Shown: positions 58,438 to 63,952 of the stretch, in pieces | How the letters are laid out: each line of letters begins with the position of its first letter | Numbering within the stretch: the stretch's first letter is position 1 | NCBI GenBank assembly: GCA_913055615.1 | Contig: CAJXKK010000012.1 | Location: forward strand, 1 to 64,000 | DNA from: an uncultured Ectothiorhodospiraceae bacterium | Lineage (GTDB): Bacteria; Pseudomonadota; Gammaproteobacteria; XJ16; Halofilaceae | DNA length: 64,000 bases | Direction of reading: 5' to 3' | Translations under genes and position numbers: made by a program | Notes under the pieces: model-generated | Database searches by the model: none | Told to the model about the DNA's origin: nothing | The model's input: the letters and a program-made list of their open reading frames with translations, nothing else

Positions 58438-58905
58438 ATGGCGACTGCAATCTTCGCCGCCGGCTGTTTCTGGCACGTGGAGCACGCGTTCCGGCAGGTA
58501 CGCGGTGTCAGTGCCGTCGAGTCCGGCTACATCGGCGGGCACGTTGATAACCCCACCTACAAGCAGGTCTGCCGCGAGGACACCGGCCACGCCGAGGCGG
58601 TCCGCGTGACCTGGGACCCGGTGCAGGTGTCCTACGATCAGCTCCTCGAAACCTTCTGGCAATGCCACGATCCGACCCAGGTCAACCGCCAGGGACCGGA
58701 CATCGGCAGCCAGTACCGTTCGGCGATCTTTTATGTCGACGAGGACCAGCGAGCGGCGGCCGAGGCCTCGAAGGAAGATCTGCAGTGGTCGGGGCGGGTG
58801 AGAGGCAAGGTCGCCACCGAGATCGCTCCGGCCGGCGAGTTTTACCGCGCCGAGGAATACCACCAGCGGTACTTCGAAAAGAACGGCATCGTCTGCGGGG
58901 TCTGA
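58438..58905 (+). CDS. msrA: Peptide methionine sulfoxide reductase MsrA
   Basis: 155 residues. The catalytic motif GCFW with nucleophile C10, GYIGG, and a C-terminal [11 protein letters not shown]...C are in place. It reduces methionine-S-sulfoxide. CGGAG lies before the start. The usual GCFWGVE reads GCFWHVE here, a mild deviation. Confidence 0.94.
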
Positions 58906-58934
58906 TTCGCGATAACCGACGATTTCGCGGGAAA

Positions 58935-58983
58935 GGTTCTCGCCAGGGCGCCCCTTTGCGCCCTCCGCGCCTTTGCGAGAACC
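58935..58983. repeat. Intergenic hairpin GGTTCTCG ... CGAGAACC
   Basis: 8-bp arms (58935-58942 and 58976-58983) enclose GGGCGCCCCTTTGCGCCCTC-like text with CCTTTGCG repeats. It is of the common intergenic GGTTCTCGCAAAGGCGC type and lies 30 bp after msrA. Confidence 0.6.
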
Positions 58984-59074
58984 CAAACCCACGCGTCTGG
59001 AGAATAGAGGCCGGCGCTTGGCACAACGCCCCGCGCGCGTTATATTCGATCAGCCATTCAGACGGATAGCCCTC

Positions 59075-59197
59075 ATGACGGCGCGTTCCGGCCGCAAAGT
59101 CGTTTCCCGCGTCGCGGTCTCGCGCGATGCACGGCCGACGTACGCCCTGCTGTCCGGCTCCCTCCTGCTTCTGCTCGCGCTTCTCCTCCTGCCTTAG
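59075..59197 (+). CDS. leuL: Leucine-rich leader peptide of leuA
   Basis: A 40-codon frame starts at ATG 59075 and ends at TAG 59195-59197. The last sixteen residues are LLSGSLLLLLALLLLP, so it holds eleven leucine codons (CTG, CTC and CTT). That is the hallmark of a leucine attenuation leader, which stalls the ribosome when charged tRNA-Leu is scarce. The stop codon lies in the loop of a perfect 8-bp hairpin. leuA begins 135 bases later. No classic terminator T-run is visible, so control may be translational. Confidence 0.75.
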   Translation: MTARSGRKVVSRVAVSRDARPTYALLSGSLLLLLALLLLP

Positions 59198-59205
59198 GGC
59201 AGGAG
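59186..59205 (+). promoter_or_regulatory. Hairpin at the leader-peptide stop
   Basis: CTCCTGCC (59186-59193) pairs perfectly with GGCAGGAG (59198-59205) around a TTAG loop containing the leader stop codon. A ribosome stalled at the leucine codons would prevent or change this structure. Confidence 0.6.
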
Positions 59206-59319
59206 AGATGACCTGGCGAGGCAAAACGCACCCAATCAGAATCCTCCGCACCGACCCGACAGGGGGCCGGGACGCGGCGAGTCCGAACCATCGGCGTCGC
59301 CGAGGCGGCGCAGGCAGAC

Positions 59320-59332
59320 GACGGAGTCCGTC
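59320..59332 (+). promoter_or_regulatory. Hairpin covering the leuA ribosome binding site
   Basis: GACGG-AGT-CCGTC ends directly before the leuA ATG and contains the GGAG ribosome binding site. It could switch translation of leuA depending on upstream leader structure. Confidence 0.5.
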
Positions 59333-60886
59333 ATGAGCCACGACAAACTGTATGTATTCGACACGACGCTGCGCGACGGCGAGCAGAGCCCGGGCGCGTC
59401 GATGACCAAAGAGGAAAAGGTCCGGATCGCGAAGGCGCTGGACCGCATGAAGGTCGATATCATCGAGGCCGGCTTCCCGGCCGCCAGCAAAGGCGACTTC
59501 GATGCTGTCCAGGCCGTCGCTCGCACCTGTAAGTACAGCACCGTCGCCGGGCTCGCGCGGGCGAAGGAGAGCGATATCGACCGCGCCGGTGAGGCGGTCA
59601 AGGACGCCCCGAAGAGCCGCGTGCATACCTTTATCGGCACCTCGCCGATCCACATGCAGGCCAAGCTGAAGATGGAGCCGGACGCGGTGCTGGAATGCGC
59701 CGTCGCGGCGGTAGAGCGCGCCCGCAAGTGGACCGATGATGTCGAGTTCTCCTGTGAAGACGCGGGCCGCTCCGAGGCGGACTTCCTTTGCCGCATCATC
59801 GAGGCGGCCATCGACGCCGGCGCCCGCACCGTGAATATCCCCGATACGGTCGGCTACAACGTCCCCGAGCAGTACGGCGGACTGATCCGCAGCCTACGCG
59901 AGCGCGTGCCGAATTCGGACAAGGCGGTCTGGTCGGTCCACTGCCACGACGATCTGGGCATGGCCGTCGCCAACTCACTGGCCGGCGTCCAGAACGGCGC
60001 CCGCCAGGTCGAGTGCACCATCAACGGCCTGGGCGAGCGCGCCGGCAACGCCTCGCTGGAGGAGATCGTTATGGCCGTGCGCACGCGCCGCGACGTGTTC
60101 CACTGCGATACTGATATCGAGACTACCGAGATCCTGCCGACCTCGCGCCTGGTCGCGAACATCACCGGTTTCCACGTGCAGCCGAACAAGGCGATCGTCG
60201 GCGCCAATGCCTTCGCCCACGAATCGGGCATCCACCAGGACGGTGTGCTCAAGGCCCGCGAGACCTACGAGATCATGAAGGCCCAGGACGTGGGCTGGAA
60301 CAACAACCGCATGGTCATGGGCAAGCACTCGGGCCGCAACGCCTTCCGCAGCAAGCTCGAGGAATTGGGAATCTCTTTCGAGACGGCGGCGGAACTGGAC
60401 GATGTGTTCGCCCGCTTCAAGGATCTGGCCGACAAGAAGCACGAGATCTTCGACGAAGACCTGCAGGCGCTGGTGACTGAGGCCTACACGGAAGAGGTCA
60501 ACGAACGCTATCAGCTCAAGCGCCTGCACGTGTGCTGCGAGAGCGATGTCGCGCCCGAGGCCTCGATCACGCTGTCGATCGACGGCGAGGAGAGGCAGGC
60601 CAAAGCGACCGGCGACGGACCCGTGGACGCCGCCTTCAAGGCGATCGAGGCGCTGGTCGACAGCGGCGCGGAACTGCGCCTGTACTCGGTCAACAGCATT
60701 ACCGGCGGGACGGACGCCCAGGGCGAGGTGACGGTGCGGCTGCTGCAGGGCGATCGCGTGGTCAACGGCCAGGCGGCGGATACCGACATCGTCATCGCCT
60801 CGGCCAAGTCGTACGTGAATGCGCTCAACAAGCTGACCCAGAAGGGTTTCCGCGAGCATCCGCAGATCGCCGCGGCCGACCTCTGA
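59333..60886 (+). CDS. leuA: 2-isopropylmalate synthase
   Basis: 517 residues. HMGL-like catalytic domain with the metal/active segment [37 protein letters not shown], and [11 protein letters not shown]; a C-terminal leucine-responsive regulatory domain follows from about residue 390. It condenses acetyl-CoA with 2-oxoisovalerate, the first step specific to leucine. Feedback by leucine through the C-terminus and leader control at 59075-59332 would act together. Confidence 0.97.
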
Positions 60887-61778: not shown

Positions 61779-62300
61779 ATGGCCGTTTCAGCGCCTGGAA
61801 CGATCATGGCCGCAGTAGTCGACCCCGCTCTCACGATCCGGCCGATGCAGGAGGCGGACCTGGCGGACGTGCTCGCGGTCGAACGCGGCGGCTATCCCTA
61901 CCCGTGGTCATCGCGGATCTTCGAGGACTGCCTGCGGGTCGGGTACTGCTGTCTGGTCGCGGATTCCGACGGGCGTATCGACGGCCACGGCATCATGATG
62001 GCGCGTGCCGGCGAGGCGCATATCCTGAACCTGTGCGTGGATCCGGGCGCGCGCCGCTCGGGCGTCGCCAGCGCACTGCTGACGAGCCTGATGGAGCTCG
62101 CGGTCACGGCCAACGCCGACTGCGCCTTCCTCGAGGTGCGGCCTTCCAACCACGGCGCCATCGCCCTCTACCAGGGGGCCGGATTCCATGAGGTCGGCCG
62201 CCGCCCGAATTATTATCCGGCGCCATTCGGGCGCGAGGACGCGCTGGTCATGGCGCGCGGACTCGCCGACCCGGACGAGGACGGGCCACAGCGGTTATAA
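61779..62300 (+). CDS. rimI: Ribosomal-protein-alanine N-acetyltransferase
   Basis: 173 residues, GNAT fold. [21 protein letters not shown] forms the acetyl-CoA binding motif and [19 protein letters not shown] the conserved C-terminal part. It acetylates ribosomal protein S18. A second in-frame ATG (61806) could be the true start. It follows the uracil glycosylase gene, a common gammaproteobacterial order. Confidence 0.9.
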
Positions 62301-62359
62301 TGTCGGGCTGCGGCCCACACAGGCCGTCGATCCGTTCCACTGAATGCATCCGATATCCT

Positions 62360-63952
<1,593 letters not shown>

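Follow-up and report, generated by a model that had tools for sequence, protein, structure and literature searches.

The window, by which we mean the whole stretch of 64,000 nucleotides of DNA that was analysed, carries a leuA gene preceded by a short leucine-rich open reading frame (ORF) and several candidate RNA elements. The features on which the analysis turns are as follows.

59018 to 59046, forward strand: sigma-70-type promoter candidate, TTGGCA-17-TATATT, 10 of 12 matches; same place and spacing in L002 and L003
59075 to 59197, forward strand: putative leader peptide ORF, 40 codons, ending in LLLLLALLLLP and stop; similar ORFs in relatives
59186 to 59205, forward strand: stop hairpin P1, 8 bp, with the stop in its loop (59194-59197); kept with different loops in relatives
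59212 to 59229, forward strand: predicted H-type pseudoknot P2, with covariation of both stems; covariance-model match at 59179-59231, 48.7 bits, the window itself belonging to the training set of the model
59230 to 59260, forward strand: stretch after the pseudoknot, A/C-rich and G-poor in relatives (117 species); possibly an unstructured spacer or a rut-like site
59320 to 59332, forward strand: local hairpin GACGG-AGT-CCGTC over the leuA Shine-Dalgarno (SD) sequence GGAG (59323-59326), exact, 5 bp
59333 to 60886, forward strand: leuA, 2-isopropylmalate synthase, 517 aa; TIGR00973 E 3.4e-220, Pfam HMGL-like and LeuA_dimer

A few genes 3' of leuA, past those for a uracil-DNA glycosylase and a GNAT acetyltransferase, lies prfC (release factor RF3, Pfam; 62300-63952). 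At the gathering score, Rfam returned for the window only a tRNA at positions 1-63 (RF00005), a gene of which the window start leaves only the 3' part; at gathering and relaxed scores alike, no family was returned for the leader element, and no match to a T-box or a known riboswitch.

The leader ORF runs from the ATG at 59075 to the TAG at 59195-59197, and its product is MTARSGRKVVSRVAVSRDARPTYALLSGSLLLLLALLLLP. An earlier note on this DNA, made from the sequence alone, had claimed eleven Leu codons for the leader and nine leucines within ten residues at the end of the peptide. Translation of the ORF confirmed both counts: eleven Leu codons (five CTG, four CTC, two CTT) in 40 residues, nine of them within residues 30-39, which are followed by Pro and the stop. 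This ORF is the sole instance of at least 8 Leu per 10 codons in the six frames of the 64-kb window. The promoter-like site at 59018-59046 was the only one of its kind found, with none in shuffles, and by eye its counterparts TTGGCA-17-TATATT and TTGCAC-17-TATATT (the latter in L003) occupy the same place in the two genus relatives; transcription should thus start near 59053, upstream of the leader ORF.

Folding energy gives no argument here, as the complete leader folds no more stably than shuffles do (z -0.89), and the case is therefore built on comparison. Since genus, family and order comprise three genomes in all in our samples (G001 and G002 being the only other ones of the order), the comparison was made at class level. 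Across the relatives, where the earlier note had proposed to look, the leader is retained: in both G001 and G002 the run LLLLLALLLLP is conserved, as are the stop hairpin and a block of roughly 50 nt on its 3' side, with an N-terminus that is identical in G001 and very different in G002. Several Leu codons differ synonymously (CTC/CTT) between the window and L003, as expected of a translated run, and this conservation suggests that the ORF is translated. Leu-rich ORFs ending about 100-200 nt 5' of leuA were present in most of the 112 leuA loci that were examined first. A 69-aa ORF at 59127-59336 shares the bases ATGA with the beginning of leuA; neither in L002 nor in L003 does a comparable ORF reach over the leuA start, and the ORF was treated as due to chance. 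The hydrophobic C-terminus could, in this species, belong to a real small membrane peptide, to which the RNA features would be incidental; we regard this as most improbable, given that relatives carry Arg inside the run (LLRLLP, LLRR), that N-termini and lengths vary, and that the RNA element is tied to leuA.

As the earlier note had noticed, the leader stop lies within a perfect hairpin, CTCCTGCC (59186-59193)-TTAG-GGCAGGAG (59198-59205), whose 8 pairs are all perfect and whose loop contains the stop codon; perfect 8-bp hairpins have a background of about 0.28 per kb in the window. A second perfect hairpin had been claimed for the leuA ribosome site. Here the exact pairing stood, but it amounts to only 5 bp: the hairpin at 59320-59332 is present with a loop change only in the closest relative, L002, and is missing in L003, the third member of the genus, so that it was rejected as a conserved feature beyond L002. 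In L044, L057, L065, L072 and L080, the sequence GATTTGAAGGTCAAGTCATG or variants of it, located just 5' of leuA, can fold into a hairpin immediately at the leuA start codon, so that the SD comes to lie in the loop.

The most conserved part of the leader is the pseudoknot, which was overlooked by the earlier note though it lies inside 59075-59332. About 7 nt 3' of the stop hairpin, the window carries a second conserved element, CCUGGCGAGG...ACGC, predicted to form an H-type pseudoknot, and in many species CCUGGCGAGG likewise follows the stop hairpin, with ACGC a few nucleotides later. In the window, stem 1 joins 59212-59214 to 59219-59221 (3 bp) around the loop GGCG (59215-59218), and stem 2 joins 59216-59218 to 59227-59229 (GCG:CGC). 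Only three pairs of stem 1 are firm in the genus of the window; over the whole collection all five pairs vary on both sides around the loop GGCG (CCU/AGG, CCC/GGG, UCU/AGA and CUU/AAG), and the outer pairs are of every type. In stem 2, a G-C pair is replaced by A-U in five sequences from about four lineages, where the loop GACG is matched by the partner ACGU in five out of five. Loop/partner combinations were G/C in 74 sequences, G/U in 7, A/U in 5 and A/C in none (Fisher p 2.3e-5, a value that overstates independence because the sequences are related), and the G-U intermediate occurs alongside the A-U form within one genus (G047, G187). Further cases of stem 2 covariation were sought in the order of G090, represented by one genome in the sample.

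A composite alignment was built from 76 sequences picked by stem 1 and an ACG after it, with the inter-stem loop trimmed to its last two bases. In this alignment 92% of the cells pair, whereas shuffles reach 83% and alignments with slid partners 52% at most; six of eight pairs have changed on both sides. The loop G, the loop CG and the partner ACG are almost invariant, partly as a result of the selection by those letters. Covariation thus lends good support to the predicted fold of the RNA element as a compact H-type pseudoknot. Two further roles for these elements were considered and rejected: an antiterminator-like helix between the 3' arm of P1 and the 5' arm of P2 fits the UGCCU types and not the TTCCT/GTCT types in our reading of the alignment, and the distance from hairpin to pause that P1 and the spacer would need as a pause site is not constant by eye. 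At L015, L067, L087, L170 and other loci before leuA, the leaders are Leu-rich and most have the stop hairpin, while the position of the pseudoknot is taken by other hairpins or sequence; this second element is apparently replaceable.

A covariance model comprising the stop hairpin and the P2 hairpin (39 training sequences) was used in a blind search of 369 gammaproteobacterial genomes, 254 of which contain leuA. The search yielded 90 matches at E ≤ 1e-3, and 86 of them lie on the same strand as leuA, 92-287 nt upstream of it; 76 of these 86 are outside the training set. An ORF of 18-49 codons ends at the element in 84 of the 85 leuA-linked matches with enough sequence. On average, 5.6 of its final 12 codons are for Leu, compared with about 1 in each of the two other frames; the model spans a few codons 5' of the hairpin, so that the last ORF codons are not independent of it. 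The four matches that are not linked to leuA comprise two chance hits inside ABC-F coding sequences, one at a contig end and one orphan copy. At L146 (position 401) the element matches strongly (E 2.3e-8) and is accompanied by a Leu-rich ORF, but no leuA lies downstream; the genome concerned, G087, also carries a second, leuA-linked copy (L151). Among the leuA-bearing genomes without a strong model match, 38 of 80 still have an ORF with at least 5 Leu in its last 14 codons. A phylum-wide search of 398 genomes returned four matches: one is the window, a second comes from another gammaproteobacterium in which the element also precedes leuA, and the remaining two are not near leuA and look like chance; the element seems to be rare outside the lineages that carry it.

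The near-fixed loop G, loop CG and partner ACG (fixed in part by selection of the sequences), together with a P1-P2 spacing that looks more tightly kept than the position of the stop, could also mark P1 and the pseudoknot as a putative binding site for a leucine-sensing protein or small molecule, with the Leu-rich ORF merely tuning exposure of the site; a protein was in fact favoured for the actinobacterial LEU element by Seliverstov et al. (PMC1262725). We consider this unlikely, as the presence of Leu-rich codons with the element in 84 of 85 cases is hard to explain if the peptide is irrelevant.

No intrinsic terminator-like site was found in 58800-59500, in agreement with the earlier note, which had reported that no T-run terminator precedes leuA. 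Likewise, the spacer between element and leuA is free of terminator-like sites in 111 of 117 species and has a weak one in 6 of 117, compared to 1.2 in mononucleotide shuffles. The distance from the pseudoknot to the leuA start is only 39-47 nt in L063, L043 and L080, a length that is too short for an intrinsic terminator and offers Rho little space. It is thus highly unlikely that we are dealing with classical leu attenuation whose intrinsic terminator was overlooked by the scans: none was found in the window or in 111 of 117 element-bearing relatives, it would have to fit spacers of about 40 nt, and on reading of the alignment P1 and P2 are not consistently mutually exclusive arms, even if a Leu-rich leader is what that mechanism calls for. 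The classical form does exist in the class. L209 (G348), 91 nt before leuA, has the Leu leader LLLSLLLMAARLHG and then CCCGTGCAAAGCACGGGTTTTTTTTT, a textbook terminator, and provides a model of a terminator-type leader.

Rho-dependent attenuation deserves more weight, although we still hold it to be improbable. According to this explanation, when leucine is plentiful Rho would load on the naked, C-rich and G-poor RNA past the leader stop and end transcription before leuA, unless prevented by a stalled ribosome or by the pseudoknot. The first 15 nt after the pseudoknot do consist of 28% C and 11% G (117 species), the lack of an intrinsic terminator in the window and in 111 of the 117 spacers of relatives would fit it, and Rho was proposed for the terminator-less leaders of Mycobacterium cys operons (PMC1262725); however, the G-poor stretch covers only about 30 nt, and spacers down to about 40 nt are short for both loading of Rho and release before leuA.

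In view of the short spacers and the lack of terminators, translational control was put to the test. The Leu-codon region and the leuA ribosome site were more complementary when both came from one species than when pairs were swapped (energy z -5.3, with -2.7 in reversed-sequence controls), and the longest perfect complementary run gave a z of 3.4, versus 1.0 in the reversed-sequence controls; this signal is modest and partly compositional. Examples are L082, where CTCTCCTGC can pair with GCAGGAGAG, and L043, where TGCTATCTC can pair with GAGATAGCA. When 30 nt at the Leu codons were masked, accessibility of the leuA SD rose by 0.092 +/- 0.017 (mean of 101 species), with 35 species going up by more than 0.1 and 4 going down; with the mask on the N-terminal part, on the gap or on the pseudoknot, the change in the same 101 species was about 0. 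The leuA SD is often GGAGCAG or GGAGTAG (26 of 123, for instance in L006, L011 and L018), which is longer than pairing with 16S requires and is complementary to CTGCTCC/CTACTCC Leu codons.

The equilibrium fold of the window mRNA gave no such effect: the SD was unpaired at about 0.43 whichever part of the leader was masked, and sits in the local hairpin GACGG-AGT-CCGTC. Since the SD stays there regardless of masking, it is the family as a whole that speaks for the translational model, which is putative for this member. The suggestion of the earlier note that attenuation is translational rather than transcriptional is thus the best fit as regards the short spacers and the complementarity of Leu codons and SD across species, but it is invisible in the fold of the window.

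Taken together, the comparisons argue well for a predicted leader whose leucine codons control leuA without an intrinsic terminator. We infer the leucine response, the direction of control, the translational output and the role of the pseudoknot. Under the translational model, the translated Leu-rich peptide would sense charged tRNA-Leu through ribosome pausing, in a leader composed of a hairpin over the last codons and the stop, and of a pseudoknot about 6-15 nt beyond. With plentiful leucine, ribosomes would clear the Leu codons, and in many species the freed CU-rich codons could then pair with the SD region of leuA; in the window, the local hairpin would keep the SD closed instead. With scarce leucine, a ribosome parked on the Leu codons would block this pairing and leuA would be translated, while the pseudoknot would probably position or insulate the two halves of the leader. 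To the reading of the locus as a leucine-responsive leuA leader, made of a Leu-rich peptide, a stop hairpin and a pseudoknot and with an output that is most likely translational, we would give an even chance. The balance is equally level for the broader proposal of a widespread class of cis-regulatory RNA in many non-enteric gammaproteobacterial families, in which a Leu-codon leader and an H-type pseudoknot would control translation of leuA and not its transcription.

The terminator switch of E. coli is the usual image of how leucine attenuation works in Gammaproteobacteria. In contrast, at least 86 model matches before leuA combine a Leu leader with a stop hairpin and with a pseudoknot and are mostly terminator-less. 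Neither Rfam 15 nor those open-access papers that were searched yielded an earlier description of the element; a 2004 comparative study of proteobacterial attenuators reportedly may already describe part of it.

Leu leaders with terminators precede leuA in Enterobacteria and Shewanella (PMC2659441). The E. coli/Shewanella leuABCD attenuator shares with the present leader a Leu-codon peptide, encoded before leuA, by which charged tRNA-Leu would be sensed, whereas the leader described here has no terminator or T-run, places its Leu run at the very C-terminus and has a conserved pseudoknot. The contrast with the E. coli leu operon drawn in the earlier note therefore holds, yet Leu leaders with no clear terminator had already been described in Actinobacteria (PMC1262725). 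In Campylobacterota, LeuL is a leader peptide of 20-35 aa with C-terminal Leu, also upstream of leuABCD; its leader RNA was reported to end shortly past the stop codon by transcriptional termination, and a pseudoknot was not reported there (PMC3847290). Corynebacterium glutamicum also has a Leu-codon leader peptide before leuA, but it is actinobacterial, has four Leu codons and was assigned to attenuation by its authors (PMC4046766). In P. putida, loss of TruA, a tRNA-modifying enzyme, leads to 4.2 times more LeuA (PMC7822408), which would fit control by a putative leader there.

The element appears to work most like the actinobacterial LEU element of leuA, a likeness of parts that we do not take as a claim of common descent. 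Both have a Leu-rich leader before leuA, a pseudoknot in the leader, a proposed pairing of Leu codons with the SD and no classical terminator (Seliverstov et al. 2005, PMC1262725). The present element differs in its phylum, in its compact local pseudoknot, which follows the stop hairpin and pairs a GGCG loop with ACGC, and in that the pairing of Leu codons with the SD is only a statistical tendency across species, absent from the window fold. If control is translational, it would offer a parallel to the unexplained LEU element, and short reporters would make the mechanism testable.
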